This document shows, piece by piece, positions 43,680 to 64,000 of a stretch of 64,000 bases of DNA. Below the pieces are notes generated by a model. That model was not told the DNA's origin, searched no databases, and worked only from the letters and a program-made list of their open reading frames with translations. Made by a program: the position numbers and the translations under genes. This stretch comes from Zopfochytrium polystomum (Eukaryota > Chytridiomycota > Chytridiomycetes > Chytridiales > Chytridiaceae), in assembly GCA_025765615.1 (NCBI GenBank), contig JAIVFJ010000020.1, positions 457,331 to 521,330 on the forward strand, in the 5' to 3' direction. Each line of letters opens with the position of its first letter. The first letter of the stretch is position 1.

Positions 43680-44081
43680 ATGGAGTGTTTTTTTCGCGTT
43701 TCGAGCAGCGCAATCGTTAGCCTTGGCATTCGCACGATGCGGTCGATTGGAACCCGCGGAAGTACGCGATGTCCTATCTTTTTTATGATTTTGCAATAGC
43801 CCCTCGGCCAACTCCCCCATCCAGTCTACAACTACAAGTACCAAGATAAGCTCAACAAGACCGTAGGACGTGCTGTGGCGGTAAGAAAGATCTTACCATG
43901 AATATCGAGACAGCTCTCTTGGTTTACATCCATAATGACAGTCCGGTAAAACGGAGCCAAAAACAGTCGAAACAGGCCCCACAGAACCTTCATCGTCCAG
44001 GACACCACGACCCCCTCCGTCGCAATTATTCTCAACGTCCTCGTCGAGTTCAACAAGGCGCCCGACGTGGGCACCGACGGG
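43680..44081 (-). pseudogene. Host gene remnant cut off by telomere repeats
   Basis: A minus-strand exon runs from the telomere junction at 44081 to about 43902 (GALLNSTRTLRIIATEG, TMKVLWGLFRLFLAPF, then QESCLDIH), ends at a GTAAGA donor, and resumes after a CACAG acceptor at about 43868 (SYGLVELILVLVVVDWMG). Both parts are hydrophobic, suggesting a membrane protein. Family not recognised. Everything 5' of 44081 has been replaced by telomere-derived sequence. Confidence 0.5.
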
Positions 44082-44095
44082 TTAGGGTTAGGGGG
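44082..44095 (+). repeat. Interstitial telomere stub 1
   Basis: TTAGGGTTAGGGGG joins the host remnant to a GC-rich unit. Confidence 0.9.
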
Positions 44096-45607: not shown

Positions 45608-45618
45608 TTAGGGTTAGG
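45608..45618 (+). repeat. Interstitial telomere stub 2
   Basis: TTAGGGTTAGG between the candidate non-autonomous unit and LINE copy 0. Confidence 0.9.
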
Positions 45619-45720
45619 CCTTTGTCCGCGTATGTCTTGCGTTCTCACCGGTTGTGCAGTTGCAGATTCCTCACCCTTTCCTTCGGGGGCGGGTTGGAGC
45701 GAATAAATCCCGTTGAAAAG
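45619..45720 (+). mobile_element. LINE copy 0: extreme 5'-truncated 3' end
   Basis: From 45658 the sequence equals the last about 63 bp of LINE copy 1 (TTGCAGATTCCTCACCC to GTTGAAAAG); the first 39 bp are unrelated. It includes the conserved terminal hairpin at 45674-45693. Severe 5' truncation is typical of incomplete target-primed reverse transcription. Confidence 0.85.
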
Positions 45721-45733
45721 TTAGGGTTAGGGG
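45721..45733 (+). repeat. Interstitial telomere stub 3
   Basis: TTAGGGTTAGGGG immediately before the 5' end of LINE copy 1. Confidence 0.9.
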
Positions 45734-45775
45734 ACTTTTTCTTCCTTCACAACCTCGCGTCCGTCGAAGACGTGC

Positions 45776-47761
45776 GTGAGGAGGTCGTCGCAAGGCAAAG
45801 TCAAGGTTGAAGACACCGTGAGAGTGTCGCAGCCTTCTACGAAGCAAACCAAACTCACCTTCGCCTCCGCCCAGCCGTCATTGCCAACACCCTCGATCGC
45901 AACATCGCCAGCCCCTGTCCAGATTCAGAAGCGATCGTTCGATCGCCGGCGCTTTGAAGTCACCACTGCTGCTGGATTTCACGATCTCGAACGTGATCTT
46001 TTTAAGTTCCACCAACGACAGCTTACCTGCCCTCGGTGCCGACATCAGTTCACCTCCAAGGGAGTTGCGGGACGTCCGAACTCGGTTTCTGGTATCCAGC
46101 GTCTCTCGATCACCTGCACTCACTGTCGCCCACCGGTCGCACGACGATTCCATTCGGAACTCGAGCGTGTGCACCCGGCCCATCACGCCGCCCTCCTCAA
46201 CTCTCTCCACCAAGTCCACACCGCAGCCACAACTGCACGCATCATCGTGAACGCATCAGCTCACTGCGATCCCCTACTTCAGACGCCCGATCGCACATCC
46301 GTTGTACGGTTTGACGATCGGAAACACCGTACTCCACCATCAGCGGACTTGATCGTCTCTAAAAGAACCCGGGCTGCGTCGCGCGACGCAGATTCCGACC
46401 TCTCAAGCACGGACTCTCGTTCCCCATCACCAAGCCCCTCTTCTCGACACCCCGCCCACCCGTGCCCCGCCCTCGAACACCCAGCGATGTCACAGCCCAT
46501 CCCGTTTTCTCAGGCAATGTTCCCAGATCCGCCCCCTCGACGCCCACCGCCGACGATGGACGAAGTTTCTGATTTTATGGAACGGACAAACGCGCTCCTT
46601 AAACTGCACAGTGACAAGCACGACTATAGCGTGGCCGAGATTGATCGCCTCAAGGGACACATTGACCGCCTGAACGAGACGATCAAGGAGAAAGATGAGC
46701 GCATTCGCGAGTTGGAGTCCGAAATCCTGCTTCTTCAGATGGAGCGTACCGCTGGAGTCAAAGGGGGGGACGGTGGTGGCGGCGGTGGCGGCGGCGGGGC
46801 GGGTGGCAGTGGTGGGGGTGGCGGTGGTACCGCACCCAGTGACAGCGACACCAACCGACGCAAGCCTCCGGTTCGCTTGGATGACGATGATTGGGATGTC
46901 GAGGAAGATGAGGAACGAGAACGCCAGCGACGCAGGAAGGGGGGTAGACCCTCTTCTCGCACCTCGGAACGCCCGACGACACCTGGAGGAGGCTGGCCAA
47001 GCTTGCCCCGCTCAAAGCAGAATGTGCACCCGCTAAGTTTTGCCGCAACTGTTGCGCTCTCTGGTCCTAAGCCTATTCATCCCAGCCCATTTGTGAAAGG
47101 CATCTTTGTCGCCGCCGATCCCAATGCCTCTGTTGAAGACAAGATTGCTCAGGTTCTGAGGCCCCGCCCCTCAGCCGTCGCGGCTCGGCGCTCAGCGCCG
47201 GGCTACGTCCGGCCTGAGTCGTCGCTGCCCGAGGCTAAGTTTGTCCCAGTGTACATCCGACCTAACCTTTCAGATGTGGGTCGGGCTAACCCCCGCCACA
47301 GCATGAGACTTGTGTTCAGACCTGAGAAGGGCTTCCCTAGAGTACCAGAAATTTCAGTCATTGGCCAATATGCTGCTCTGATGGAATGCTGGGTGTATGA
47401 GGGGGACAAGGAGAAGTTCATCAAGGCTTGTGCTGATGCTGAGATTGCTGTGGACACTGATTGTGAGCCCTGGATGCCCTCGAAGTTGAAGGATTCTCCT
47501 GAAGCTAGGGAAGCAGCTGTGCAGGCGTATATCCGCCGGGTTGCTGGGATCCTGAACCATCCATTCTTCAGACCGCCACCCAATGTTGCCAAGTCTATCT
47601 ATGCATCTGTGCCAAAGAAATTGGAGACACTCTTGAGGGGGAAGTTGAAGGATCTCTCTCTGTACCCATCTGCGCCTTCTGGTGTGAAGGGGAAGGGGAG
47701 GGAAACTGAGACTGAACCCACTGCTGTGCGTGCAGGCGATGCCAATGCCATGGAAACATGA
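45776..47761 (+). CDS. LINE copy 1 ORF1 protein
   Basis: About 661 residues; presumed nucleic-acid-binding partner that forms the RNP. Features in order: basic, Ser-rich N-terminus; a CxxC...CxxC zinc ribbon (LTCPRCRHQFTSKG, then RLSITCTHC); a Pro/Ser-rich linker; a coiled coil (IDRLKGHIDRLNETIKEKDE, then IRELESEILLLQ); a Gly-rich stretch; a basic Arg segment; and a conserved C-terminal domain (VYIRPNLSDVGRANPRHSMR, ISVIGQYAALMECWVYEG, VAGILNHPFFRPPP). It lacks the usual CCHC knuckles of LINE ORF1. No ATG lies in frame before the zinc ribbon; 45776 is GTG, so the true start is uncertain. The stop overlaps the ORF2 start. Confidence 0.88.
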   Translation: MRRSSQGKVKVEDTVRVSQPSTKQTKLTFASAQPSLPTPSIATSPAPVQIQKRSFDRRRFEVTTAAGFHDLERDLFKFHQRQLTCPRCRHQFTSKGVAGRPNSVSGIQRLSITCTHCRPPVARRFHSELERVHPAHHAALLNSLHQVHTAATTARIIVNASAHCDPLLQTPDRTSVVRFDDRKHRTPPSADLIVSKRTRAASRDADSDLSSTDSRSPSPSPSSRHPAHPCPALEHPAMSQPIPFSQAMFPDPPPRRPPPTMDEVSDFMERTNALLKLHSDKHDYSVAEIDRLKGHIDRLNETIKEKDERIRELESEILLLQMERTAGVKGGDGGGGGGGGGAGGSGGGGGGTAPSDSDTNRRKPPVRLDDDDWDVEEDEERERQRRRKGGRPSSRTSERPTTPGGGWPSLPRSKQNVHPLSFAATVALSGPKPIHPSPFVKGIFVAADPNASVEDKIAQVLRPRPSAVAARRSAPGYVRPESSLPEAKFVPVYIRPNLSDVGRANPRHSMRLVFRPEKGFPRVPEISVIGQYAALMECWVYEGDKEKFIKACADAEIAVDTDCEPWMPSKLKDSPEAREAAVQAYIRRVAGILNHPFFRPPPNVAKSIYASVPKKLETLLRGKLKDLSLYPSAPSGVKGKGRETETEPTAVRAGDANAMET

Positions 47762-50700
47762 GCAAGTCATTGAGATTTGGATTTTTGAATGCCCATGGAT
47801 CCTTAGCTGGACATTCAGATCAAGTTCAAGGAATTTTTTCAGATTTTCAAGTAGACTATATGTTGTTTTCAGATATTGGAATGTGGAGTTCTGACAGTAT
47901 GAGTGCAGTTTGGGGTGTTGTTGCTGAGGCAAGGGGGGTGCCCCCTCCTTATCAACCTGGGCGGAATGTTGGAACAAGGGCAAAGAAGGGAGTGGCTGTT
48001 GTGGTGAGCGGAGATCTGGACAGTGATGCCCACCTCGTGGTGCAGACCCTGCACAGGTCCCCCAAGGGAGAATGGATCATTGTGAAGATGTCGGAGCTGA
48101 TTGTTGGATTGACATACTTTGCGCCAAGTGCACCTCTGGAGTCATTGCAGGAATTTCAAGACCAAGTTAGTCAAGTTAGCACTCTTATGCCTGCAGCACC
48201 CTTTCTGATCATTGGAGACTTCAACATTTGGATGCGTGAATATGGATGCCGCACCTCTGCTCCTGCTGAACGTGTTTGCTGGCTACAGGACTGGCTGCGA
48301 CCCCCTTCCCAGTGGAGGAGGGTTGCGCCGGTTCGTGGCCAGTGGACCACAATGACAGAGGGACGGGCTGGTGGACCTGGTGGACGGGGGGTCACTGATC
48401 TTCTGTTTGTCAACCAGCATGCTCTCCCCTTTGTTCAGAACCTGGTTGTCCATGATGACCCTTCAGAGTATGTTGGATTCTCAGATCACAGGCTGTTGAC
48501 CTTCACCTTCAATGGGGATCTGACCACCAAGCCCCCGTTTGAGCGCCTGAATGTTCGGAGACTCATGATGAGACAGACCAAGTATGCTAGCTGCCTTGAG
48601 AAGACCAGGAAACCCATCAGAGCCCAGATTCATTCAGTTTGGAAAGAAGTTGAAGCTGCCGCTGAGGCCGGAGAGCTCTGGACTTATGAGAGGCGTTTGG
48701 CTTGTGTGGATGCTGTTTCAGACTTGGTCGTGCAGTGGCTCATGGACAATGCTATTAAGGTGGCTGGGAAAGTTCGCTTTAGGGGTGGATCTGGAGGACC
48801 AGAGATCCGGGAGAAGCATCTGGAGGAGCTAAAGCACCGTCGAGTGGAGGCGCGAAGGGCTGCTGAGGCTCACCCAGATGATGATCCTGTGGGGCAGAAG
48901 ATGGCCTGGACTCAGTTTCGTCAGTGGAATAAGATTGTGAAGATTGCCATCAAGCGGTACAGGAAGCGTGTATATTCAGCTGTCCAGGACTCTGCTGTGC
49001 GTGACTTTGCTGGTGAGGCCAAGCGCATCAAGTGTCAGAAGGCTCGTTCAGATAGGAGCCAGTGTGCCCTTGACCCCCAGAAGATGGGCCATTACGAAGA
49101 CCATTTCCGCACAACCATAGGCCATGAGCCAACCGGAACTGATGTCCCTGACGCTGGGGCCCTCGAAGAATCAGCAGTTACTGTGAACAAGGTCCCTCTG
49201 AAGCAGTCTGAAGTCTCCTGGATTAAGAAGGTTCATGTTGAAGAAGCCTGCAAGAATGCCCCCAGGGGCAAAGCCCCTGGAGAAGACATGCTTTTTGGGG
49301 AGTTGGTCTCAATTGCTCCGCACTTGGTTGCTGCAGTCCTGCACAGATTCTTTCAGCTTGTGGCCTCTCTTCATGTGGTTCCTTCTCTGTGGTCTGTGGC
49401 CAATGTGGCCTTGGTCTACAAGAACAAGGGGCTCAACAGCGATGTTGCAAACTACAGACCCATCTCCTTGTGCTCTAGGATGCGACTTGTGTTTGAGCGA
49501 GTGATTGCACCCCAGGTTGAGCGCGTGGTTGAAGGGATGATCCACAGGGCGCAGGGAGGTTTCAGAAGAAAGCGGTCCACCATGGACCAGGCCTACACTT
49601 TGCATGAGCTTCAGCAGCTGAACCCCCAGATGCATGTGGTGTATTTGGACATTAAGGCTGCGTATGACTGCACAAACAGGAGTCTGGTGTGGGACTCCAT
49701 CTGGTTTGCCAAGAATGACAAGAGTCGTAACTTTACAAGGACTCAACTGCTGCCGATCCTCAGATCTTTGTTTGATTTCAATGCATGCCAGCTGCTGGTA
49801 CTTGGGAACAAGTCTGCTCAGATCCAAGTGACAAGAGGATTTCTCCAAGGCACAGTCCTGTCACCCATGCTGTTCAATGTTGCCATCAACTCCTTGCCTC
49901 AGACATTGGCCATGTCTTTCAGGGACCACATGTTGACATTTAATGCAACCTCCCTAAACTCACTGCTCTTTGCTGATGACTCCTCTGTCTTTGCAAAGGA
50001 TGCGACAGTACTTCAGAGAATGCTAGACAAGGTGCATGAGTGGTCCCTTAAGCGGGGGATGACATTTGCTGCCAGGAAGTGTGTCGCAGTTTCAGCCAAG
50101 AAGAATTTGAAGTTGAAGATGAATGGAGTGGAGATTCCCCAGGAGGAGTCTACTACCCAGTTGGGTCTTGTGCGCACCTGCAGGGGTATTGACTTTGAGG
50201 CCTCACTGGCCATGAGACTGAGGAAAACAGAAAAGATGCTGGCCTTTTTGGCTGCTCGGGGTTTCAATGGCTGGGGCTTCAGGCCCGTGAGCTCTTACAG
50301 GGTTTACATGTGTTTCCTGAGACCAATGATGGAGTATGGGTTTGCACTGCGCCCCTTGACCCACACACAGCTGAAGGATGCGCAGAAATTGCAGGAAAAA
50401 TGCCTGCGGCAGGCGCTGTCACTGGGGAAGACCTCCTCAGGGGCGGCCCTGCATCTGATGTTTGGAGTGGTCCCTGTGGCAGCCAGGAACAAGATGCTGA
50501 ACGCTAGATACTTTTTCAGACTGCACCACATTCAGGATGCTCGCAACACAACAGCTCAGATGTACAGGCACATGGTGGAAAAGATTGCTTCAGGGGCCTC
50601 TGTGGGACAGTCCTTGACAAAGTTCTCGCTTGACTATACGGGTATTCAGGATTTTTTGGACTCTGTGAGGCGGCCTTCCTTTGTGGAGGTGCCACTTGTG

Positions 50701-51540
50701 GTTCCCACCACCAAGGCCTATGACATTGAGTTGCCAGTGGTGAGAACAAAGAACATTGAGGCTGCAGACATGCTGGCAATGCACAAGCGGGCTTTGGTGA
50801 GGTGCCAGCAGAAATCCTCCCCCACCGGGGTGGCTCAGGCTTTGGAGGTGCCTTCACACATGGGGCCATGCCAAGTTATTCGATCTGGTGCGGCATTTAA
50901 CAGGAAGTGGCTCAGACACCTGCTGATGTGGATGGCTGGGATGGTAGCATTTCACCAACAGTGTGCAAGGGCTGACTGCGCAGAGAAGTGCACTAGGAGG
51001 CATGTTTTGGAGTGTTCAGGGGTTAAGGACAGGCTGGAGAGGCTGCATCCTGAGTTGATTCCCACGGCAGAGCAACAGGATTTGAACATTTCAGCAGTGG
51101 ATGTGGGCCTAAGGTCGCTGGTCTTTTGGGCCCCCTACAGTGCCAAAGCTGAGGACAAGATCTCTAAGGAGACTCGCATTGCCTCCAAGAAGATGGGAAT
51201 GAAGCTGGCCAGAATGATCATGCAGATGCGCATTGAGTGTGGAGGACTTGCGAATTTCACTGATGCTTCAGAGACAACAGCAGCAGAGGAAGCAGAGGTC
51301 GTGGTGGAGGCAGGTCGTGTGGACCGACAGGATATGAGCATTCAGGAACGGATGGCAGCAGCCAGGGTGCGCAAGCTTGCAAGGTCAGTCATCATCACCA
51401 CCTACGATCCAGTACGGAACAAACAGTGGCGGGAGTCAAGGGAAAAGTGGAAGAAGAAGGAAACGGAGGGTGTTGAGGGGACAGTGGACGGCAATGGGCA
51501 TGTGGACTCTGATTCAGAGGAGGAGGCCGGAGCTGGGTGA
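47758..51540 (+). CDS. LINE copy 1 ORF2: APE endonuclease and reverse transcriptase
   Basis: 1260 residues, starting within the ATGA overlap. Endonuclease (about residues 1-250): LRFGFLNAHGSLAGH, FLIIGDFNIW and the terminal GFSDHRLLTF, the APE signature, which should nick the telomere target. RT (about 480-830): YKNKGLNSDVANYRPISLCS, GGFRRKRSTMDQ, YLDIKAAYD, GFLQGTVLSPMLFN and the catalytic FADDSSVFA. C-terminus: a Cys/His knuckle (CARADCAEKCTRRHVLEC) typical of LINEs, then a basic and finally acidic tail (DSDSEEEAGAG). No RNase H domain is visible. All catalytic residues are present. Clade not assigned. Confidence 0.93.
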   Translation: MSKSLRFGFLNAHGSLAGHSDQVQGIFSDFQVDYMLFSDIGMWSSDSMSAVWGVVAEARGVPPPYQPGRNVGTRAKKGVAVVVSGDLDSDAHLVVQTLHRSPKGEWIIVKMSELIVGLTYFAPSAPLESLQEFQDQVSQVSTLMPAAPFLIIGDFNIWMREYGCRTSAPAERVCWLQDWLRPPSQWRRVAPVRGQWTTMTEGRAGGPGGRGVTDLLFVNQHALPFVQNLVVHDDPSEYVGFSDHRLLTFTFNGDLTTKPPFERLNVRRLMMRQTKYASCLEKTRKPIRAQIHSVWKEVEAAAEAGELWTYERRLACVDAVSDLVVQWLMDNAIKVAGKVRFRGGSGGPEIREKHLEELKHRRVEARRAAEAHPDDDPVGQKMAWTQFRQWNKIVKIAIKRYRKRVYSAVQDSAVRDFAGEAKRIKCQKARSDRSQCALDPQKMGHYEDHFRTTIGHEPTGTDVPDAGALEESAVTVNKVPLKQSEVSWIKKVHVEEACKNAPRGKAPGEDMLFGELVSIAPHLVAAVLHRFFQLVASLHVVPSLWSVANVALVYKNKGLNSDVANYRPISLCSRMRLVFERVIAPQVERVVEGMIHRAQGGFRRKRSTMDQAYTLHELQQLNPQMHVVYLDIKAAYDCTNRSLVWDSIWFAKNDKSRNFTRTQLLPILRSLFDFNACQLLVLGNKSAQIQVTRGFLQGTVLSPMLFNVAINSLPQTLAMSFRDHMLTFNATSLNSLLFADDSSVFAKDATVLQRMLDKVHEWSLKRGMTFAARKCVAVSAKKNLKLKMNGVEIPQEESTTQLGLVRTCRGIDFEASLAMRLRKTEKMLAFLAARGFNGWGFRPVSSYRVYMCFLRPMMEYGFALRPLTHTQLKDAQKLQEKCLRQALSLGKTSSGAALHLMFGVVPVAARNKMLNARYFFRLHHIQDARNTTAQMYRHMVEKIASGASVGQSLTKFSLDYTGIQDFLDSVRRPSFVEVPLVVPTTKAYDIELPVVRTKNIEAADMLAMHKRALVRCQQKSSPTGVAQALEVPSHMGPCQVIRSGAAFNRKWLRHLLMWMAGMVAFHQQCARADCAEKCTRRHVLECSGVKDRLERLHPELIPTAEQQDLNISAVDVGLRSLVFWAPYSAKAEDKISKETRIASKKMGMKLARMIMQMRIECGGLANFTDASETTAAEEAEVVVEAGRVDRQDMSIQERMAAARVRKLARSVIITTYDPVRNKQWRESREKWKKKETEGVEGTVDGNGHVDSDSEEEAGAG

Positions 51541-51832
51541 CAGTTTGTGCAGTGTTTCAGGTGCAGTCCCTCGAACCTCATTTGTTATCTATTTGTTTTC
51601 TTGTTGTTAAATCTCACCTCACCTCTGTGGATCCTCTCCTCTTTTTCCTTTTGACCTAGTTGCTGTTCTTTGTTTTTCTCTTCTGCCTTTTGATTCTCTA
51701 CTTGGCACCACTTTCTTGCCTCTGGACATGTTTCTCCTATTTCATATGTATGCACTTTTTAACTTTCAAAGTTGCAGATTCCTCACCCTTTCCTTCGGGG
51801 GCGGGTTGGAGCGAATAAATCCCGTTGAAAAG
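51541..51832 (+). other. LINE copy 1 3' UTR
   Basis: T-rich 290-bp trailer ending with the terminal hairpin, AATAAA at 51814-51819 and GTTGAAAAG. Near-identical to the copy 2 trailer (57807-58097). Confidence 0.85.
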
Positions 51833-51843
51833 TTAGGGTTAGG
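51833..51843 (+). repeat. Interstitial telomere stub 4
   Basis: TTAGGGTTAGG between copy 1 and copy 2. Confidence 0.9.
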
Positions 51844-52205
51844 AGGAGCTCCAGTAGATCTCAGTTGGTTAACACATCTGAGTTTGCTGGTGAGTGGGCG
51901 CTCCGTTCGATCCGGACAGTACTAGGGGAAGCGCGCTCATCCAACCCGCCTCGTGCCCCGTTCGGGAAAGCCGTGCGTAGCTCAAATAAGGGAAGGACCT
52001 GGCACGCTCCCCAGGTAAGGGCCGTCGCGGTGAGTGAGATGTCCCCATGAAGTCCCCATAAGGACAGCTAAGGAACTATACTGCGGCGCGACTGATGAGA
52101 GCGGCTACCGGTGTGCTAAGCATGCTCAAGGTTTCACGGTGCCTAGTGAATAAAGTTGAGCCCCAGTTGGGGGGCCTGAGGGTTCAACTCCCTAGGTACG
52201 GTGTC
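51844..52205 (+). repeat. tRNA-like/SINE-like 5' block of copy 2
   Basis: 51848-51925 resembles a tRNA: A-box-like TAGATCTCAGTTGGTTAACA and a good B-box CCGTTCGATCCGG; the acceptor stem does not pair. A second B-box-like GGGTTCAACTCCC lies at 52181-52193. No match to copy 1 or copy 3 5' ends. Confidence 0.4.
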
Positions 52206-54019
52206 GCAGCCCTCGAAGAAAAAACAACCTTACCTTCACGCCAGCCCCCGCCTCTTCGCTCGCCCAACCTGCAGCCACATCTGGTCCACGGCAATTCCCC
52301 CGTCGCCACTTCGAGGTTAGCACGGCCCAGGAGTTCAACGCTCTTGAACGAGCACTTTTCAAGTACCATCAGAAACGGATCACTTGCGACCAGTGCCGAC
52401 GCCCAGTAATCTCCAAAGGCCTTGCTGGACGAGCAAACAATATCTCCAGTATCCAACGATCTCCATTCAGTGCTCTCACTGCCCCCACCCAGTCTCTCGC
52501 CGTTTTCACGCCGAACTCGCTCAAGTTTGTCCCGACGATCACGCCGCACTCAACGCGCTCTCCACGAGTACACGCACGGCAGCCACAATCGCCGCCGCTT
52601 AACCTTCGTTACGATCGGAACACCCGTCTGTGTGAACGCGCACCACGCGGCCGACGTCATCTTGCACCCGACACTTTCCGACCCCCGATCCTAGCAGGCC
52701 ACTCCCAACACGCCCACTCGTTCTGACCCCGCCCCCAGTCCCGTCCCGAAAACCACGGTCCCAGCAAGCCGTTTTCTCAAGCGATGTTTCCAGATCCGCC
52801 CCCTCGACGCCCCCCTCCGTCGAGGAGAGTTTGGATTTATGGACGGACAAGGCTCTGCTTAAACTGCACAGCGACAACACAACTATAGCGTGGCCGAGAT
52901 TGCGCTCAAGGGACACATTGACCGCCTGAACGAGACGATCAAGGAGAAAGATGAGCGCATTCGCGAGTTGGAGTCCGAAATCCTGCTTCTTCAGATGGAG
53001 CGTACCGCTGGGAGTCAAAGGGGGGGACGGTGGTGGCGGCGGTGGCGGCGGCGGGGCGGGTGGCAGTGGTGGGGGTGGCGGTGGTACCGCACCCAGTGAC
53101 AGCGACACCAACCGACGCAAGCCTCCGGTTCGCTTGGATGACGATGATTGGGAGGTCGAGGAAGATGAGGAACGAGAACGCCAGCGACGCAGGAAGGGGG
53201 GTAGACCCTCTTCTCGCACCTCGGAACGCCCGACGACACCTGGAGGAGGCTGGCCAAGCTTGCCCCGCTCAAAGCAGAATGTGCACCCGCTAAGTTTTGC
53301 CGCAACTGTTGCGCTCTCTGGTCCTAAGCCTATTCATCCCAGCCCATTTGTGAAAGGCATCTTTGTCGCCGCCGATCCCAATGCCTCTGTTGAAGACAAG
53401 ATTGCTCAGGTTCTGAGGCCCCGCCCCTCAGCCGTCGCGGCTCGGCGCTCAGCGCCGGGCTACGTCCGGCCTGAGTCGTCGCTGCCCGAGGCTAAGTTTG
53501 TTCCAGTGTACATCCGACCTAACCTTTCAGATGTGGGTCGGGCTAACCCCCGCCACAGCATGAGACTTGTGTTCAGACCTGAGAAGGGCTTCCCCAGAGT
53601 ACCAGAAATTTCAGTCATTGGCCAATATGCTGCTCTGATGGAATGCTGGGTGTATGAGGGAGACAAGGAGAAGTTTCATCAAGGCTTGTGCTGATGCTGA
53701 GATTGCTGTGGACACTGATTGTGAGCCCTGGATGCCCTCGAAGTTGAAGGATTCTCCTGAAGCTAGGGAAGCAGCTGTGCAGGCGTATATCCGCCGGGTT
53801 GCTGGGATCCTGAACCATCCATTCTTCAGACCACCACCAAATGTTGCCAAGTCTATCTATGCATCTGTGCCAAAGAAGTTGGAGACACTCTTGAGGGGGA
53901 AGTTGAAGGATCTCTCTCTGTACCCATCTGCACCTTCTGGTGCGAAGGGGAAGGGGAGGGAAACTGAGACTGAACCCACTGCTGTGCGTGCAGGCGATGC
54001 CAATGCCATGGAAACATGA
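52206..54019 (+). pseudogene. LINE copy 2 ORF1, disrupted
   Basis: Diverged N-terminal part keeps the zinc ribbon in two frames (ITCDQCRRPVISKGLAG, then IQCSHCPHPVSRRFHAEL). From 52890 the coiled coil and C-terminal domain match copy 1. Extra single bases at about 53011 (G) and 53675 (T), plus small indels around 52820-52910, break the frame. The ATGA overlap with ORF2 is kept at 54016-54019. Confidence 0.85.
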
Positions 54020-57000
54020 GCAAGTCATTGAGATTTGGATTTTTGAATGCCCATGGATCCTTAGCTGGACATTCAGATCAAGTTCAAGGAATTTTTTCAG
54101 ATTTTCAAGTAGACTATATGTTGTTTTCAGATATTGGAATGTGGAGTTCTGACAGTATGAGTGCAGTTCGGGGTGTTGTTGCTGAGGCAAGGGGGGTGCC
54201 CCCTCCTTATCAACCTGGGCGGAATGTTGGAACAAGGGCAAAGAAAGGAGTGGCTGTTGTGGTGAGTGGGGACCTGGACAGTGATGCCCACCTGGTGGTG
54301 CAGACCCTGCACAGGTCCCCCAAGGGAGAATGGATAATTGTGAAGATGTCGGAGCTGATTGTTGGATTGACGTATTTTGCGCCGAGCGCACCTCTGGAGG
54401 CTCTGCAGGAATTCCAAGATCAAGTTAGTCAAGTTAGCACTCTTATGCCTGCAGCACCCTTTCTGATCATTGGAGACTTCAACATTTGGATGCGTGAATA
54501 TGGATGCCGCACTTCTGCTCCTGCTGAGCGTGTTCGCTGGCTGCAGGACTGGCTGCGACCTCCTTCCCAGTGGAGGAGGGTTGCGCCGGTTCGTGGCCAG
54601 TGGACCACAATGACAGAGGGACGGGCTGGTGGACCTGGTGGACGGGGGGTCACTGATCTTCTGTTTGTCAACCAGCATGCTCTCCCCTTTGTTCAGAACC
54701 TGGTTGTCCATGATGACCCTTCAGAGTATGTTGGATTCTCAGATCACAGGCTGTTGACTTTCACCTTCGATGGGGATCTGACCACCAAGCCCCCGTTTGA
54801 GCGCCTGAATGTTCGTCGGCTCATGATGAGACAGACCAAGTATGCTAGCTGCCTTGAGAAGACCAGGAAACCCATCAGAGCCCAGATTCCATTCAGTTTG
54901 GAAAGAAGTTGAAGCTGCTGCTGAGGCTGGAGAGCTCTGGACTTTTGAAAGGCGCTTGGCCTGTGTGGATGATGTTTCAAGACTCTGTTGTGAAGTGGCT
55001 CATGGACAATGCTGTTAAGGTGGCTGGGAAAGTTCGCTTTAGGGGTGGATCTGGAGGACCAGAGGTCCGGGAGAAGCATCTGGAGGAGCTAAAGCGCCGT
55101 CGCGTGGAGGCGCGGAGGGCTGCTGAGGCTCACCCAGATGATGATCCTGTGGGGCAGAAGATGGCCTGGACTCAGTTTCGTCAGTGGAATAAGATTGTGA
55201 AGATTGCCATCAAGCGGTACAGGAAGCGTGTATATTCAGCTGTTCAGGACTCTGCTGTGCGTGACTTTGCTGGTGAGGCTAAGCGCATCAAGTGTCAGAA
55301 GGCTCGTTCAGATAGGAGCCAGTGTGCCCTTGACCCCCAGAAGATGGGCCATTACGAAGATCATTTCCGCACAACCATAGGGCATGATCCAACTGGAACT
55401 GATGTCCCTGACGCCGTAGGCTCTGGAAGAATCAGCGGTTACTGTGAGCAAAGTCCCTCTGAAGCAGTCTGAAGTCTCCTGGATTAAGAAGGTTCATGTT
55501 GAAGAAGCCTGCAAGGATTGCCCCTAGGGGCAAAGCCCCTGGAGAAGACATGCTCTTTGGGGAGTTGGTCTCAATTGCTCCGCACTTGGTTGCTGCAGTC
55601 CTGCACAGATTCTTTCAGCTGGTGGCCTCTCTTCATGTGGTTCCTTCTCTGTGGTCCGTGGCCAATGTGGCCTTGGTCTACAAGAACAAGGGGCTCAACA
55701 GCGATGTTGCAAACTACAGACCCATCTCCTTGTGCTCTAGGATGCGACTGGTGTTTGAAGCGAGTGATTGCACCCCAGGTTGAGCGTGTGGTTGAAGGCA
55801 TGATCCACAGGGCGCAGGGAGGTTTCAGAAGAAAGCGGTCCACCATGGACCAGGCCTACACTTTGCATGAGCTTCAGCAGCTGAACCCCCAGATGCATGT
55901 GGTGTATTTGGACATTAAGGCTGCGTATGACTGCACAAACAGGAGTCTGGTGTGGGACTCCATCTGGTTTGCCAAGAATGACAAGAGTCGTGACTTTACA
56001 AGGACCCAACTGCTGCCGATCCTCAGATCTTTGTTTGATTTCAATGCATGCCAGCTGCTGGTACTTGGGAACAAGTCTGCTCAGATCCAAGTGACAAGAG
56101 GATTTCTCCAAGGCACAGTCCTGTCACCCATGCTGTTCAATGTTGCCATCAACTCCTTGCCTCAGACATTGGCCATGTCTTTCAGGGACCACATGCTGAC
56201 ATTTAATGCAACCTCGCTCAACTCGCTGCTCTTTGCAGACGACTCCTCAGTTTTTGCCAAGGATGCGACAGTACTTCAGAGAATGCTAGACAAGGTGCAT
56301 GAGTGGTCCCTTAAGCGGGGGATGACATTTGCTGCCAAGAAATGTGTTGCAGTTTCAGCCAAGAAGAATTTGAAGTTGAAGATGAATGGAGTGGAGATTC
56401 CCCAGGAGGAGTCTACTACCCAGTTGGGTCTTGTGCGCACCTGCAGGGGTATTGACTTTGAGGCCTCGCTGGCCATGAGACTGAGGAAAACAGAAAAGAT
56501 GCTGGCCTTTTTGGCTGCTCGGGGTTTCAATGGCTGGGGCTTCAGGCCCGTGAGCTCTTACAGGGTTTACATGTGTTTCCTGAGACCAATGATGGAGTAT
56601 GGGTTTGCACTGCGCCCCTTGACCCACACACAGCTGAAGGATGCGCAGAAATTGCAGGATAAATGCCTGCGGCAGGCGCTGTCACTGGGGAAGACCTCCT
56701 CAGGGGCGGCCCTGCATCTGATGTTTGGAGTGGTCCCTGTGGCAGCCAGGAACAAGATGCTGAACGCTAGATACTTTTTCAGACTGCACCACATTCAGGA
56801 TGCTCGCAACACAACAGCTCAGATGTACAGGCACATGGTGGAAAAGATTGCTTCAGGGGCCTCTGTGGGACAGTCCTTGACAAAGTTCTCGCTTGACTAT
56901 ACGGGTATTCAGGATTTTTTGGACTCTGTGAGGCGGCCCTCCTTTGTGGAGTTGCCACTTGTGGTTCCCACAACCAAGGCCTATGACATTGAGTTGCCAG

Positions 57001-57806
57001 TGGTGAGAACAACGAACATTGAGGCTGCAGACATGCTGGCGATGCACAAGCAGGGCTTTGGTGAGGTGCCAGCAGAAATCCTCCCCCACCGGGGTGGCTC
57101 AGGCTTTGGAGGTGCCTTCACACATGGGGCCATGCCAAGTTATTCGATCTGGTGCGGCAGTTTAACAGGAAGTGGCTCAGACACCTGCTGATGTGGATGG
57201 CTGGGATGGTAGCATTTCACCAACAGTGTGCAAGGGCTGGCTGTGCAGAGAAGTGCACTAGGAGGCATGTTTTGGAGTGTTCAGGGGTTAAGGACAGGCT
57301 GGAGAGGCTGCATCCTGAGTTGATTCCCACTGCAGAGCAACAGGATTTGAACATTTCAGCAGTGGATTTGGGCCTAAGGTCGCTGGTCTTTTGGGCGCCC
57401 TACAGTGCCAAAGCTGAGGACAAGATCTCTAAGGAGACTCGCATTACATCAAAGAAGATGGGAATGAAGCTGGCCAGGATGATCATGCAGATGCGCATTG
57501 AGTGTGGAGGACTTGCGAATTTCACTGATGCTTCAGAGACAACAGCAGGCAGAGGAGGCAGAGGTCGTGGTGGAGGCAGGTCGTGTGGACCGACAGGATA
57601 TGAGCATTCAGGAACGGATGGCAGCAGCCAGGGTGCGCAAGCTTGCAAGGTCGGTCATCATCACCACCTATGATCCAGTAAGGAACAAACAGTGGCGGGA
57701 GTCAAGGGAGAAGTGGAAGAAGAAGGAAACTGAGGGTGTTGAGGGGACAGTGGACGGCAATGGGCATGTGGACTCTGATTCAGAGGAGGAGGCTGGAACT
57801 GGGTGA
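54016..57806 (+). pseudogene. LINE copy 2 ORF2, disrupted
   Basis: Same domain order as copy 1, with endonuclease and FADD intact, but split by single-base insertions relative to copy 1 near 54889, 54978, 55422, 55515, 55758, 57052, 57161 and 57549. No in-frame nonsense substitution was noticed. If the insertions are assembly errors, the gene is whole. Confidence 0.85.
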
Positions 57807-58097
57807 CAGTTTGTGCAGTGTTTCAGGTGCAGTCCTTCGAACCTCATTTGTTCTCTATTTGTTTTCTTGTTGTTAAATTTCACCTCACCTCTGTGGATCC
57901 TTTCCTCTTTTTCTTTTTGACCTAGTTGCTGTCCTTTGTTTTTCTCTTATGCCTTTTGATTCTCTACTTGGCACCTCTTTCTTGCCTCTGGACATGTTTC
58001 TCCTATTTCATATGTATGCACTTTTTAACTTTCAAAGTTGCAGATTCCTCGCCCTTTCCCTCGGGGGGGGTTGGAGCGAATAAATCCCGTTGAAAAG

Positions 58098-58110
58098 TTA
58101 GGGTTAGGGG
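58098..58110 (+). repeat. Interstitial telomere stub 5
   Basis: TTAGGGTTAGGGG between copy 2 and copy 3. Confidence 0.9.
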
Positions 58111-58135
58111 ACTTTTTCTTTTGTTACGTTCTTAA

Positions 58136-60184
58136 CCTTGTCGGAAGACACGGTCGAGGGCGCCTTCGCGAGGCAAAGTCACAGTCGACCCCAGCGTCAC
58201 CCTGTCTAAACAAACCAAACTCAACTTCGCCCCTGTCACCACCACCTCGGCGATCGCGGCATCCGAAGCTGTCCTAGGCAGTCAGGACGCCGCCCCTGCA
58301 ACGCCGACACCGCCACCCTTCCCCCGTGAACGCTTCAACGTACGGACTGCAAGCGAGTTTCACTCGCTGGAGCGCGATCTCTTTCAGCACCATCAGAAAC
58401 ACATCCGCTGTACCGCCTGTCACAACCAGCTCATCTCGCGAGGCATAGCAGGGCGGCCGAATACGAAGTCTGGTATCCAGAGACTCTCGATCGCCTGTTC
58501 CCATTGCAAACCGTCCGCCGCGCGCAGATTCCACAGTGTCCTTGCGGATCTGGACGCCGTCGACGCCGCCGATCTCAACACCGCTAATCGCCGAGTCTGG
58601 CAGATTGCTACCGCGACCGCGACCACCCCAGACGCATCCAACGTACCCGACACGCCTACCCAGTCTACTCGGAATCCTAAACAACGCACACCCCCGTCGA
58701 TCGACACCCTAGACGCCAAACGTGGCCGTGCAGCGCCCGACGACGCCGCCAACAGATCTGTGTCTGCATCGCACGACGCAGCCCCCCTCGCGCCTGCATC
58801 GTGCGACGCAACGGCTTCTACTCCGACGCGACCAGCGCCCCCACTCTTCCCGGTGGACGACGACGACAGCGATCTCAGTGACGCACCCGAAACTTCAACC
58901 TATACTGCACCCTCTGCCACGCGCGGCACAGGGCTCGGTATGTCACACCAAACGACCTCTCCGCAATCGTCACAGTTGCCTCTGACTGGATCACTCGCTG
59001 ATGCCGCACACACCCTCATCCCACCGACCAACGCGGAATTAATCGGATTCATGGCCAGTCAGCAACGCAGGTGGGCGCAACAGGAACGTCTCAACCAGCA
59101 ATCAAAAGACAAGGCTACGTACTTCACGGAGACCCTTGACCAACTTCGAGGACGGATATTCGACTTGGAGGCCACCATCACAGCCAAGAACGAGCGCATT
59201 CGCGCCCTCGAGGAGGAGTTAGAACGCATGCGGAGTGCACAGCGGGAGAGGCGGATCGATGAGGACGAGGAGGGGGAGGACGACGATGGGGAGGAGGCCG
59301 GTGATGGAGGAGGAATGCGGAGGGAGATGACGGAGCAGCTGAAACCGCGCAGAGAGGGGCAGCGCCCCTCTTCTCGAGCTTCAACTGGACGCCCCAATCC
59401 GAGGAGTGGGGGCCTGCCCCCCAACCGCCGTTTTCCGCTAAGTTTCGCTGCCATCGCGGCAGCCAACACTCCGGAACCGCTTTTTGCTAACAATTTCCGC
59501 AAGGGCATTAAGATGATCACCGACCCCAAGGTTGACACTGAGACCAAGCTCAAGCAGATTTTCAGACCCAGATCCTCCGTTGTAGAGGCGCGCCGCGCAG
59601 CGCCAGACTATGTCCCGCCTGCGTGGTCCCTTGAAGGAGCGAAGTATGTTCCAGTCTATGTTAGGCCCAATCTTTCAGATATTGGTCGAGCTGCGCCCCG
59701 CCACAGTTTGAGACTGCTATTCACTGCTGCGAATGGATTCCCTCGGGTCCCTGAGATCTCTGTGATTGGCAAGCATGCGTCATTGATGGAATGCTGGGTT
59801 CTGGAATCTGAGAAGGCCAAGTTTGTGGCAGCTTGTAAAAAGGCTGAGGTTGTGGTGGATGATGAGTGTGAACCCTGGAAACCCTCGCGCCTTCGATCAG
59901 GGGCCGAGGCTGAAGCTGCTGCTGTGCGTGCATATCTGAGCCGTATTGCTGGAATTCTGAACCACCCGACATTCCGTCCCTCTGTGCTGCTGGCAAAGTC
60001 TATCTGTGAATTTGTGCCCCGCCGGTTTGTGGCTGACCTGAAGGCGAAGCTTCGCGACCCGTCACACTTTCCCGCCAAGGGGAAGGAGCCGGAGACGGAG
60101 GCAGAACCTTTAGAGACACCCAAGCCCCGTGGGGCTGAAGACACAGGAGCTTCCAGTGGTGCCGACACGATGCTTGATGATTGA
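58136..60184 (+). CDS. LINE copy 3 ORF1 protein
   Basis: Open from 58136, just after a TAA, to 60184. The conserved region starts GKVTVDPSVTLSKQTKLNFA, then the zinc ribbon (IRCTACHNQLISRG, RLSIACSHC), Pro/Asp-rich linker, coiled coil (FTETLDQLRGRIFDLEA, then IRALEEELERMRS), acidic stretch and the C-terminal domain (VYVRPNLSDIGRAAPRHSLR, ISVIGKHASLMECWVLES). The first in-frame ATG is at 58760, far after the zinc ribbon, so initiation is unclear, as in copy 1. It overlaps ORF2 by eight bases (ATGATTGA). Confidence 0.85.
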   Translation, partial: PCRKTRSRAPSRGKVTVDPSVTLSKQTKLNFAPVTTTSAIAASEAVLGSQDAAPATPTPPPFPRERFNVRTASEFHSLERDLFQHHQKHIRCTACHNQLISRGIAGRPNTKSGIQRLSIACSHCKPSAARRFHSVLADLDAVDAADLNTANRRVWQIATATATTPDASNVPDTPTQSTRNPKQRTPPSIDTLDAKRGRAAPDDAANRSVSASHDAAPLAPASCDATASTPTRPAPPLFPVDDDDSDLSDAPETSTYTAPSATRGTGLGMSHQTTSPQSSQLPLTGSLADAAHTLIPPTNAELIGFMASQQRRWAQQERLNQQSKDKATYFTETLDQLRGRIFDLEATITAKNERIRALEEELERMRSAQRERRIDEDEEGEDDDGEEAGDGGGMRREMTEQLKPRREGQRPSSRASTGRPNPRSGGLPPNRRFPLSFAAIAAANTPEPLFANNFRKGIKMITDPKVDTETKLKQIFRPRSSVVEARRAAPDYVPPAWSLEGAKYVPVYVRPNLSDIGRAAPRHSLRLLFTAANGFPRVPEISVIGKHASLMECWVLESEKAKFVAACKKAEVVVDDECEPWKPSRLRSGAEAEAAAVRAYLSRIAGILNHPTFRPSVLLAKSICEFVPRRFVADLKAKLRDPSHFPAKGKEPETEAEPLETPKPRGAEDTGASSGADTMLDD

Positions 60185-63100
60185 TGGACTTAGATTTGGA
60201 TTTGTAAACTTGAACTGCTCGCTCTCAGGACACGTCAAGAACATAGACCAAGCATTTTCAGATATCCATTCAGACTATATTTTGTTGGCGGACACTGGGA
60301 TCACTGTGGTGGAGAATAACCCGTTGAGGGGATTGGTGGCTGACTCAAGGGGACCGGCGTTGGAGTTTGAGGAGCGGCTTGGGCATAAGGGCAAGAAGGG
60401 GGTGTCCATTCATAAGGGCAGGAGGATGGAGGAGGACTTGGTGGTTCAGACATTGGAGAAGGACACAAAGGGGGAGTGGGTCATTGCGAGGATGTCAGAG
60501 ATTATCATGGCAGTGGTGTACTTTGCACCCTCGACGGATTTGGAGGTGCTTCAGTCATTCTCAGCAACAGCAGACAGGATTGCTGGGGCTAATCCCCAGG
60601 CACCCTTTCTGATCATTGGAGATTTCAACACTTCACTGCAGGAGTATGGCTGTGCCCACTCGCAGCCCAGGCTGAGGGTGGACTGGTGGCGCGCCTGGAT
60701 TGATGGTTCAGGATGGAGCAGGGTTGAGCCAGTTCAGGGCCAGTGGACCACCTTCTCACCTAGAATTGCTGGCCCTGTAGGCAGGGGAGTCACTGACTTG
60801 CTCCTTGTGAATCGAGCTGGACTTGGAGCTGTGCATAACTTGGTTGTCCATGACGCACCTGAGGAACACTTGCCTTTCACAGACCACAGGATGCTCACTT
60901 TTGAGCTTCGAACACACCTGACCATGAAACCACCCTTTGAGAGACTGAATGTGCGCAGGCTGATGCTGAGACAAGTCCAGTATGAGAAGAAACTTGCAGA
61001 GACCAGGAAGCCCTTGAGACAAGAGATTCACGCAGCATGGAAGACTGTGAATGCTGCTGCTGTAGCCCAGGAGGAGTGGTCTTTTGAGCGCAGACGTGCC
61101 AGTGCAGACTCTGTATCTCAGTTGGTGGTGAAGTGGCTTGTGGACACTGGAGTCCAAGTGGCTGGGAAGACCAAGTTTAGGGGCGGTGCAGGCGGCCCTG
61201 ATGTCGAGGAGAAGCATTTGGAGGAGCTGAAGCGCCGGCGTGACCTGTCGCGCATGGAGGCTGAAGCCCACCCTGATGATGATCCTGTCGGGCAGAAGGA
61301 CGCCTGGGCAAAGTTCAGGCAGTGGAACCGGCTGACAAAGGTGGCCATCAAACGCTACAGGAAGAGGGTGTACTCTGCTGTACAGGATTTAGCTGTCAAG
61401 GACTTTGCTGCTGAAGCCAAGAGAATCAAGTGTCAGAAATCCAGAGTGGAGCGCACTCACTGTGCCCTTGACCCTCAGAAACTTCCAGATTATGCTGATC
61501 ACTTTAGGGGAACCATTGGCCATGAGCCAACTGGTACTGATGCCGTCAACCAGGATGTCTTAGCTGCCTGCAGTGCTGAACGACTCATGGTGCCTCTGAA
61601 GCTTTCTGAAGTTGCCTGGATCAAGAAGAATGCTGTGGAAGAAGCCTGCAAGATTGCACCCCGGGGCAAAGCCCCAGGGGAGGATGCCCTGTTTGGCGAA
61701 CTGGTGTGCATTGCCCCACATGTGGTGGCTCCTGTGTTGCAGAGATTCTTCCAGTTGCTTGCAGCCCTCCAGGTGGTTCCCACACTCTGGGGGATCGCGA
61801 ATGTTGCCCTGGTGTACAAGAACAAGGGGGTGAACACTGATGTGGCAAACTACAGGCCAATCTCTCTGTGCTCAAGGCTGAGGCTGGTGTATGAGCGGGT
61901 GTTGGCCCCGCAGGTGGAAAGAGTGGTTGAAGGAATGATCCACCCATCACAGGGTGGTTTCAGGCGCCACAGGTCCACCATGGACCAGGCGTTCACTCTG
62001 CATGAGCTTCAGCAACAGTACCCTGATCTGACTGTGGTGTACTTGGACATCAAGGCTGCCTATGATTGCACAAACAGGAATTATGTGTGGGAGTCCATCT
62101 GGAATGCCAAGAATGACAAGAGTCCTGAGTTTACCAGGAACCAGTTGGTGCCGATTCTCAGATCCTTGTTTGACTTTAATGCGTGCCAACTTCTGGTCAT
62201 GGGCCAGAAGTCTGATCAGATTCCAGTGACGTGGGGATTTCTACAGGGAACTGTGTTGTCCCCGATGCTGTTCAATGTTGCCATCAACTCGCTGCCTGAG
62301 GCGCTCTCCAGGGTGCCCCACAGCCAGTTGCAATGTGGTGGATTGAAGATCAACTCTCTGCTGTTTGCTGATGACTCTGCAGTGTTTGCGCGGGACAAGG
62401 CTGTCCTTCAGAATATGCTTGATGAAGTCCACAACTGGTCGCAGAGGCGGGGCATGACCTTTGCAGCACAGAAATGTGTTGTTGTTTCCAAGACACGAAA
62501 CTTGAGATTGCAGATGAATGGGGTGGTGCTTCCCCAGGAGAAGACTACACTGCAGTTGGGACTTGTGCGTGATTGCAACGGAATCGACTTTGAGACGTCT
62601 CTGCAGATGAGGGTGAAGAAGACTGAGAAGATGCTTCAGTTTCTGAAATCTCGAGGGTTCAATGGCTGGGGATTCCGGCCTGTGAATGCGTACAGGGTCT
62701 ACATGTGTTTCCTGCGACCCATGCTGGAGTATGGGTTTGCCGTTGAGGCCAAATTCAGAGGCCTTCTTGGCCCCAGCCCAGAAGGTCCAGGACATGTGTT
62801 TGCGCCAGGCTCTGTCTTTTGGGAAAAACATCCAGCACTGTGGCAATGCATCTGATTTTTGGAGTGGTGCCAATGGTTGCACGCAACAAGATGTTGAACG
62901 CGAGATATTTCTACAGACTGCACCACACTCAGGACCAGAGAAACACCACTGCACACATGTACAGGCACATGGCGGAGCGGGGGCGGCGGGCTCCTGCAGG
63001 ATCCCTCACCAGGCTCACTCTGTTCACACCGGATGTGGATCTCTATTTTGGGTCAGTGCCACGGAAGGCCTTGGCACAGATTCCGTTTGTCAGACACAGG

Positions 63101-63811
63101 ACTTATCCGTACGACCTTGAAGTTACCAGATCTGAGCCCAAGAACATTGATGCTGTCGCTATGCAGAAGATGCACACTGTGTCACTGGAGAAGTATAAGG
63201 AAAAGGCCAACTTGACTGGAGTGGTAGCACCTCTGGTGGTCCCCCCTCACCGGGGGCCCTGCCAGGTGGTTCGTTCTGGTGCAATATTTAACAGGAGGTG
63301 GTTGAGATGCCTTGTGGCTTGGATGGGAGGTCGTGTGGCCTATCACCAGAAGTGCAAGAAGTGTGATGCTGAGCTGGACAGGAACCATGCCTTGGAGTGT
63401 TCAGGTGTGCGCCGCCTCCTGGAGGCGGACCACCCTGAGTGCGTCCCAAGCCTGGAGCAGGCGAGGAGGAACATCACAGTGCTGGATCTGCTGCTGCAGA
63501 CTCTGACTTTCTGGGCACCCTACACAGCCAATGATGCAGATAAGATCCCTCAGGAGACGAGGGTTGCTTCAAAGAAGCTGGGGATGAAGCTTGCTAGGCT
63601 GATTGCAAAGATTCGAGTGGAATGCGCTGGAATGAGGGACTTTGTGGATGCTTCAGAGACCACAGCAGAACAGGAGGCAGATCATTTGATGGAAGCAGGG
63701 ACAGTGGATGATAGGAGGGCGGATCTGAGGACTCGCACGCAGATGGCGCAGGTGCGGCGGCAAGCTAGGGAAGCCCTGCGTGCGCACTGGGATCCAGTGC
63801 GCAACAAGGGG
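60177..63811 (+). pseudogene. LINE copy 3 ORF2, frame-broken and truncated
   Basis: Start at 60177 (MIDGLRFGFVNLNC). APE endonuclease FLIIGDFNTS and FTDHRMLTF; RT YLDIKAAYD, GFLQGTVLSPMLFN and FADDSAVFA. The frame shifts by one near 62744 (TTTGCCGTTGAGG) and again in an A5 run near 62822-62827, each cured by removing one base, after which LIFGVVPMVARNKMLNARYF follows. The Cys/His knuckle (CKKCDAELDRNHALEC) is kept. Coding homology stops at 63809 where telomere repeat begins. Confidence 0.88.
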
Positions 63812-64000
63812 TTTAGGGATAGGGTTAGGGTTAGGGTTAGGGTTAGGATTAGGGTTAGGGTTAGGGTTAGGGTTAGGGTTAGGGTTAGGGTTAGGGTTAG
63901 GGTTAGGGTAGGTTAGGGTTAGGGTTAGGGTTAGGGTTAGGGTTAGGGTTAGGGTTAGGTTAGGGTTAGGGTTAGGGTTAGGGTTAGGGTTAGGGTGGTT
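63812..64000 (+). repeat. Terminal telomere repeat (TTAGGG)n
   Basis: About 31 units, G-rich strand pointing off the right end, with variants at the inner border (TTTAGGGATAGGG), one TTAGGA and two units lacking a G. Marks the chromosome end or contig end. Confidence 0.97.

Follow-up and report, generated by a model that had tools for sequence, protein, structure and literature searches.

Head-to-tail arrays of an APE-type LINE with a telomere-like spacer in the chytrid fungus Zopfochytrium polystomum

How do several copies of one retrotransposon come to lie in a single orientation against the telomere of a fungal contig, with a short piece of telomere-like sequence between one unit and the next? 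The question is raised by a 64,000-nucleotide stretch (hereafter the window) of Zopfochytrium polystomum, which forms the final 64 kb of contig C20 (JAIVFJ010000020.1) in an assembly of 80,164,350 bases and 761 contigs. The copies belong to a family of long interspersed nuclear elements (LINEs) that we call LINE A, with subfamilies b and d, whose second open reading frame (ORF) encodes an endonuclease of the apurinic/apyrimidinic (APE) type and a reverse transcriptase (RT). We propose that LINE A builds arrays through a telomere-like target of ~12 bp, and we put the probability of this full explanation at about 0.78.

Layout and coding capacity of the terminal array

All units of the array are on the + strand and share one orientation, with GTTAGGGTTAG between them; exact copies of this motif were located in the window at 44081, 45607, 45720, 51832 and 58097. 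TTAGGGTTAGGG occurs 25 times in the window compared with 0 in shuffles. The array opens with the proximal motif (44081..44091), which is preceded by non-LINE sequence and followed by a non-coding unit of 1.5 kb, unit B (44092..45606), that begins with GGAGGAAAAACTTTGCAATTTTT and ends in the tail AGATAATAAATTTCTTGAGGA. After a spacer (45607..45617) comes copy a (45618..45719), only 102 nucleotides (nt) long, of which the final ~65 nt (62 nt in a second comparison) match the LINE A 3' end and the initial ~37 nt are non-LINE. A further spacer (45720..45730) leads into copy b (45731..51831), a complete LINE A with both ORFs open. Copy c (51843..58096), which follows the spacer at 51832..51842, is 96.8% identical to copy b across 5,392 nt and is broken by frameshifts (25 gap openings). 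Beyond the last spacer (58097..58107), copy d (58108..63811) represents a second subfamily, its ORF2 protein being ~64% identical to that of copy b. Its ORF1 frame is open across 682 codons, but its 3' part is lost: telomere repeats begin inside ORF2 at 63811, and the tract of (TTAGGG)n with variants (63812..64000, + strand; (TTAGGG)n itself at 63813-63996) runs to the contig end.

The original prediction had described four same-orientation copies starting at 45619, each bounded by TTAGGG stubs and ending in the telomere. Orientation, spacers and terminal tract hold, while the four copies are in fact one short tail, one intact element, one broken element and one truncated element. The array starts upstream, at 44081, with unit B; copy a is in part non-LINE; and copy d has neither a 3' tail nor a distal stub. 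Moreover, the stubs are one near-constant motif and not leftovers of variable length, as detailed below.

In copy b, ORF1 (45776..47761, + strand, GTG start as listed) encodes 661 amino acids (aa) and ORF2 (47758..51540, + strand) 1260 aa, with the APE endonuclease at residues 19-244, the RT at 563-791 and a C-terminal Cys/His motif at 1069-1086. The ORF2 product matched Exo_endo_phos (25.6 bits; cut-off 24.5) and RVT_1 (88.7 bits) in Pfam, and no Pfam match to RNase H was obtained. A profile of the LINE A clade detected L1 ORF2 in PDB with 167 bits, endonuclease included, and R2 with 120 bits in the RT only; at the endonuclease level it scored L1-EN (44 bits), TRAS1-EN (25 bits) and R1-EN (21 bits) and also matched ExoIII. 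With the endonuclease piece alone, phmmer against PDB returned chance-level matches only, and the clade profile did better. LINE A is thus an APE-type non-LTR (long terminal repeat) retrotransposon, having both an APE-like endonuclease and an RT in ORF2. Many copies are 5'-truncated and have constant 3' ends, as is typical of junctions made by target-primed reverse transcription. The ORF1 product carries two CxxC motifs (85 and 114) and a possible coiled-coil helix at about 286-328; a CCHC knuckle of the pattern C-x2-C-x4-H-x4-C was not found in it, and its structure model has low confidence (mean predicted local distance difference test score 47).

The family has moved recently, to judge from near-identical copies. 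Copy b aligns with a copy on C359 across 6,116 bp with 0 mismatches and a single gap opening, located at the 5' junction, and the two have different neighbours; the ORF2 protein of a copy on C160 is 100% identical to that of copy b. Comparison of the b and d ORF2 genes gave a ratio of nonsynonymous to synonymous change (dN/dS) of about 0.20 over 892 codons, a rough value as dS is about 1.5 and near saturation, which indicates that the protein is constrained.

Spacers, their variants and the polarity of arrays

Searching the genome with the b-type tail GGAGCGAATAAATCCCGTTGAAA at up to 2 mismatches gave 101 sites, compared with 0 for the reversed control. All of these tails are of b type, and most d-type 3' ends fall outside the count. 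Positions were analysed for 100 of the 101 tails; the same number was fetched for spacer measurement, of which 99 were measured and one (L041), which mismatched the script, was judged by eye. Directly after the tail, 83 of the 99 have exactly GTTAGGGTTAG and 16 have a variant of it. The telomere phase stops at most 2 nt beyond the motif in 80 of the 83, which makes the spacer near-constant at 11-13 nt and shows that the phase of the telomere repeat at the insertion point is fixed. Genome-wide, the spacer motif is found 730 times, telomere tracts included, compared with 67 for the reversed control. In most cases another element, complete or 5'-cut, follows directly after the spacer, and this may be family A, subfamily d, unit B, another LINE-like start or a tRNA-like head.

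Variants of the motif are specific to arrays. On C102, four spacers all read GTTAGGGTTAGT, although they stand behind two different tails and before different elements, and three spacers on C151 carry GTTAGGGAT. Concordant variants at 12 nt were also found on C19, C107, C52, C344, C22, C201 and C383, at 10 nt on C321, and by eye on C21. For the statistical comparison we used 123 spacers (98 of the 101 A and 25 of the 54 B), leaving out L025 and L099; L025 would add a concordant pair with L173. At 12 nt there were 14 concordant within-array pairs, six of them from C102, compared with a shuffle mean of 1.13, and 0 of 10,000 shuffles reached 14. At 11 nt, 4 pairs were concordant and 0.18 were expected (1 of 10,000 shuffles). 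Furthermore, where both sides of an insertion or array start could be read, the 5' variant equals the 3' variant on C218 (GTTAGGGTTGGGG) and C262 (GTTAGGATTAGGG), as well as on C3 and its homologue on C218 (TTAAGGGTTAGGGG) and on C55 (GTTAGGGTTAGC). Because the variants are array-specific and common to different element families, insertion most likely duplicates a telomere-like target of ~12 bp and so recreates the landing site. The array-specific spacers would then be a readable record of target duplication.

The mechanism that we propose is as follows. The target of LINE A would be the telomere-like GTTAGGGTTAGN, in which the endonuclease may nick the C-rich strand at 5'-CTAACCCTAAC|, and the freed 3'-OH would prime reverse transcription of LINE RNA ending in GTTGAAAA. 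A cut of the G-strand about 11-13 nt away would duplicate the target on both sides, so that each insertion leaves a fresh target at both ends. Later elements (same family, other subfamily, unit B or tRNA-headed chimeras) could nest into these, and the outcome would be a head-to-tail array with all 3' ends facing one way. Such a self-renewing landing site would explain array growth without a long telomere. As telomeres show the motif in one orientation, arrays near ends should mostly have their 3' ends outward; the remaining arrays would have started at interstitial motifs.

The polarity of the arrays agrees with this. Of the 60 tails on contigs of at least 100 kb, 31 point to a contig end no more than 20 kb away and 2 point the opposite way. 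Counted as arrays, 20 are outward and 2 opposite (binomial p 0.0001). Assembly breaks inside chromosomes would give both polarities equally, and most terminal arrays are therefore likely to sit at real chromosome ends. Full-length ORF2 matches numbered 19 among the 37 of 501 candidates that were scored, namely 13 of b type (12 without a stop) and 6 of d type. Of these, 16 lie at most 18 kb from the contig end that they face, several of them on short contigs; if contigs below 100 kb are set aside, the figure is 7 of 10. Among the candidates scored, full-length copies lie mostly close to ends rather than far from them, the latter being the distribution that the original prediction had named as contrary to it. 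In 26 of the 30 tail loci for which 1.5 kb upstream was examined, at least 150 nt of b or d LINE sequence precedes the tail.

A second LINE tail, ending in GCGAATAATACACTATTGAAAA and followed by the same kind of spacer, was observed at L141, L144-L148 and L168 and at L010, L017 and L028. The 3' untranslated region with this tail resembles that behind d-type bodies (94-96% for L010 and L028, 84% for L017), and the tail is probably the d subfamily's own 3' end.

Chromosome ends and the weighing of explanations

The role of the arrays at chromosome ends was approached through 22 contig ends with TTAGGG tracts, taken from a larger number; two of these (C400 and C448) have only about four repeats and could be contig breaks inside a Penelope-like unit. 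Five of the 22 caps touch LINE A or d, all five inside the body of the element and at five different points (C20, C160, C253, C487 and C590). The other 17 are on sequence other than this LINE, including, by eye, a copia-type ORF on C84. No cap after a LINE A or unit B tail was found among these 22 ends. A telomerase RNA-binding domain (PF12009) is encoded in two neighbouring pieces at C88, and 0 of 14 control genomes matched. Since LINE A is sense on the G-strand and its 3' ends point toward the tip, the primer would have to be the C-strand, and a terminal G overhang could not be extended in the manner of HeT-A. We suggest that telomerase caps the chromosome end, in several cases after the distal part of an array was lost. 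The arrays look like expendable subtelomere that is re-capped after such loss; they would act as a buffer and not as an end-building machine, and the LINE A elements look like tolerated passengers at ends rather than maintenance machinery. A part in end maintenance by transposition, which had been suggested for the array, therefore finds no support in the C-strand priming, the caps inside LINE bodies or elsewhere, the telomerase domain and the internal tails. Caps in broken LINE ORFs, together with the spacer record, make the role of retroelements at ends testable in an early-diverging fungus.

Four other explanations need to be weighed against target duplication. Arrays might have grown mainly by recombination or break-induced replication that copied units together with their spacers, which we regard as unlikely. 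In its favour, a ~11.2-kb module recurs within C253:61691-87911 (tails at 65488/76678 and 71538/82718; 5' ends at 65527/76717/87892), junctions L107 and L108 are identical, and the Penelope-like units of C400 and C448 follow one another at 5.36-kb intervals. The C253 module is indeed evidence that arrays also grow by recombination. However, the concordant spacers of C102 and C151 precede different families and 5' truncations, which indicates separate insertions, single copies have matching flanks, and even within the C253 module L057 and L058 differ slightly at the junction. Serial insertion into a live terminal (TTAGGG)n cap, with stubs as leftover telomere, has been the description of MoTeR arrays, and it would account for the polarity and end bias seen here; more than three repeats precede a LINE copy on C4 and C68 (L009 and L036). 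Interstitial tracts of at least three repeats break in M. oryzae, according to PMC7367193, and this could keep spacers short. We nonetheless consider live-cap insertion improbable, given that spacers are held at 11-13 nt (80 of 83) instead of ranging from 0 to 2 repeats and that non-telomeric variants (TTAT, GGATA, AGT) recur within one array, neither of which is expected from cap trimming, and that none of the 22 caps examined follows a LINE tail.

The remaining two explanations fare worse. If the element RNA itself ended in GTTAGGGTTAG and carried it along, the motif or a near variant should follow nearly every tail, internal ones included, as is the case, and telomere-like GGUU sequences in the 3' untranslated region of SART1 are thought to aid priming (PMC7265360). 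Yet the variants differ between arrays and agree within an array across families with unrelated tails, and single copies carry the identical variant at 5' and 3'; this model was dropped after the spacer-variant analysis and appears to us highly improbable. We give almost no credence to maintenance in the style of HeT-A/TART, in which the LINE would transpose onto ends and replace telomerase. Arrays do reach contig ends, but the polarity is wrong for priming on a G-strand overhang, the caps are ordinary TTAGGG, a telomerase domain is encoded, internal insertions have matching flanks, and none of the ends studied here showed a LINE addition whose 3' junction was proximal.

Target duplication by LINE A also has to be interpreted with caution considering several observations that weigh against it. 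As many as 27 of the 60 tails on contigs of at least 100 kb are internal (>20 kb from both ends), as compared with the 31 that face an end within 20 kb, and contig ends merely stand in for those of chromosomes. C4 and C203, which have an insertion in common, are possible alleles, which means that the 22 arrays are not all independent. Only 24-98 nt of LINE-like sequence precede the tail at 4 of the 30 tail loci (L019, L020, L022 and L030), and a tail is hence not proof of a LINE copy. Spacers are discordant on C55, C88 and C81, and the motif is not beside the start of similarity at the apparent 5' ends of the internal copies L021, L027 and L038. C218 holds an intact internal copy, and the homologous stretch C3:668769-669067 has neither LINE nor telomere-like motif: the empty stretch reads GGGGACGGGAGGAAGG, and the filled allele has TTGTTGTTTGGGTTAGGGTTGGGG before and GTTAGGGTTGGGG after the LINE. 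In that haplotype the telomere-like insertion may have come first, or motif and LINE may have arrived together. No pre-insertion LINE A site with one clean motif was found, and an unoccupied motif on C75 concerns unit B and not LINE A.

There, at C75:17430 (L112), an interstitial (TTAGGG)4TTAG lies unoccupied within an AT-rich repeat. Related repeats on C262, C15 and C344 have unit B at the corresponding place, and on C262 and C344 it is found between copies of GTTAGGATTAGGG.

A second terminal retroelement was observed in the same genome. Its RT contains YCLPKIHK, GMAMGT and RYIDD, which we take to be Penelope-like motifs; it lies at L165 1816-4107 on the - strand (C16:479468-481756) and is also present on C400, C448, C726, C140, C63 and C44. 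The Pfam score for RVT_1 was 17.8 bits, below the cut-off, GIY-YIG was not matched, and the element had 31 matches in the genome. It forms tandem units ~5.36 kb apart on C400 (4), C448 (4) and C726 (2 plus a partial one). On its 3' side the element adjoins telomere tracts of differing lengths (C14, C400 and C16), and its polarity is opposite to that of LINE A. A tentative wider picture, which may well be wrong, is that two retroelement systems of opposite polarity occupy the ends, with erosion and telomerase re-capping and with retroelements as a renewable buffer. If true, a LINE renews its own landing site and builds arrays without needing the telomere, a Penelope-like element is joined to the telomere by its 3' end, and an early-diverging fungus has a mixed end economy of retroelements plus telomerase.

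At C16:470477-494326 (L165), two arrays point toward one another with their distal 3' ends and are separated by a telomere tract and a Penelope-like unit; this is an end-to-end fusion or an assembly misjoin. In addition, all 261 occurrences of (TTAGGG)4 lie on the + strand of contigs, the CCCTAA form being absent, a bias that is probably an effect of assembly or trimming.

Relatives, known telomeric elements and accompanying sequences

The best RT matches (region 490-830) were to Chytriomyces confervae (47%) and to proteins from ENA and JGI sources (44-47%), and LINEs of Mucoromycota had 30-37% RT identity to LINE A. Pieces of the Z. polystomum protein P0003 matched contig C252 at 84-98% identity, which points to this species or a close relative as the host. 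A search with the whole ORF2 found 6 proteins and one with a four-row profile found 5. One scan of viral contigs gave 18 pattern matches, of which none was confirmed as a relative. Our RT tree comprises 69 of 127 rows (hand-chosen homologs and human L1), with four long branches flagged. In it, b and d join P0001 and P0008-P0013 with a support of 100/99, and this LINE A group lies inside a 44-row clade (97/93) with Mucoromycota rows; human L1 and the LINEs that bear RNase H are placed outside this clade. None of the rows is known to be an R1, SART, TRAS, Tad1 or MoTeR sequence.

SART and TRAS are of the APE type, as are the L1-like Zepp1 and Tx1-1_ACar; the ORF1 of R1-clade elements bears CCHC knuckles, the ORF2 of Tad1 carries an RNase H domain, and Coprina is an endonuclease-deficient Penelope-like element at telomeres. 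SART1 and TRAS1 (R1 clade; silkworm and other insects) are, like LINE A, LINEs specific for telomere repeats, but the host of LINE A is a fungus and its RT groups with chytrid and other relatives near Mucoromycota LINEs. The CCHC knuckles of the R1 clade are lacking in the ORF1 of copy b, and the RNase H of Tad1 has no match in the ORF2 of LINE A, with the RNase-H rows outside the 44-row clade. LINE A also departs from HeT-A and TART, which transpose terminally with the 3' end proximal, in its polarity and its matching flanks. The TRAS1 and R1 endonucleases were both detected by the LINE A clade profile, as noted. According to PMC7265360, SART1 inserts inside the repeats and not at the end, and needs at least three repeats, whereas one ~12-bp motif seems enough for LINE A. 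The same paper has SART and TRAS inserting in opposite orientations, so that either polarity has precedent.

PMC10088271 lists as telomeric LINEs SART/TRAS, Zepp1, Tx1-1_ACar, MoTeR1, GilM/GilT and the Drosophila set. That source describes Zepp1 (Chlorella) and Tx1-1_ACar (anole) as telomere-associated LINEs; their hosts differ from that of LINE A. It also places endonuclease-deficient Penelope-like elements (Athena) at telomeres, to which the counterpart here is the Penelope-like element with end-proximal 3' ends, separate from LINE A and opposite in polarity. Among fungal elements, MoTeR1 and MoTeR2 of Magnaporthe and FoTeR of Fusarium share with LINE A the TTAGGG-type spacers. MoTeR arrays are head-to-tail, and the element is accompanied by the non-coding MoTeR2 (PMC7367193; PMC12857005), comparable to unit B; its 5' ends face the tip and its spacers range from half a repeat to >20 (PMC7367193); and FoTeR and Cnl1 fall in one clade with MoTeR1 and CRE1/2 (PMC12857005). 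LINE A differs from these elements in having an APE endonuclease instead of a restriction-like endonuclease with a CRE-group RT, and from MoTeR also in its outward 3' ends (31 vs. 2) and in spacers that are near-constant at 11-13 nt instead of variable.

The domains, the spacer phase, the endonuclease type and the polarity support the original prediction of a fungal LINE of the APE type that is specific for telomere-like sequence and distinct from MoTeR. We class LINE A as a telomere-repeat-specific LINE, SART-like in inserting within telomere repeats. Literature searches, not all aimed at this question, judged by titles and abstract openings and with most subscription journals outside their coverage, found no APE-type telomeric LINE in a fungus. 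Telomere-specific LINEs have been described in few lineages, and the fungal ones named in the sources cited here (MoTeR, FoTeR and Cnl1) belong to the restriction-like endonuclease group. A telomeric element of the APE type in a chytrid-type fungus would mean that telomere targeting has arisen separately within fungi.

Several other sequences accompany LINE A. Unit B is probably a non-autonomous element, and its tail pattern has 54 genome sites at up to 3 mismatches compared with 1 for the reversed control. We rejected the idea that it is part of the Penelope-like element on C16, as only the first 195 nt of B are present there, at an apparent junction of two ends. Unrelated sequence before a short LINE A tail was seen at L019, L020, L022 (copy a, window 45618-45719) and L030; these are small passengers or chimeras that use the LINE tail, and are a minority. 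Copy c begins with a tRNA-like head fused to the LINE (51843..52200, + strand), in which we take certain stretches, by eye, to be A- and B-box-like. ARAGORN found no tRNA in this stretch of the window or in four loci, and we discarded a ribozyme or other known RNA as the source of the unusual 5' end of this copy, since Rfam gave only 3 sub-threshold matches and none there. A similar head, ~350-400 nt long, joins LINE A or d at three different points (copy c, L029 and L031), a pattern suggestive of a template switch in the course of reverse transcription or of a chimera between a short interspersed nuclear element and a LINE.

Proximal to the array, an ORF at 33730-38130 encodes 1466 aa with 13 WD40 stretches and contains a tandem repeat of 126 bp (12.8 copies, 92% matches). 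It is probably a rapidly changing subtelomeric gene for a WD40-repeat protein.

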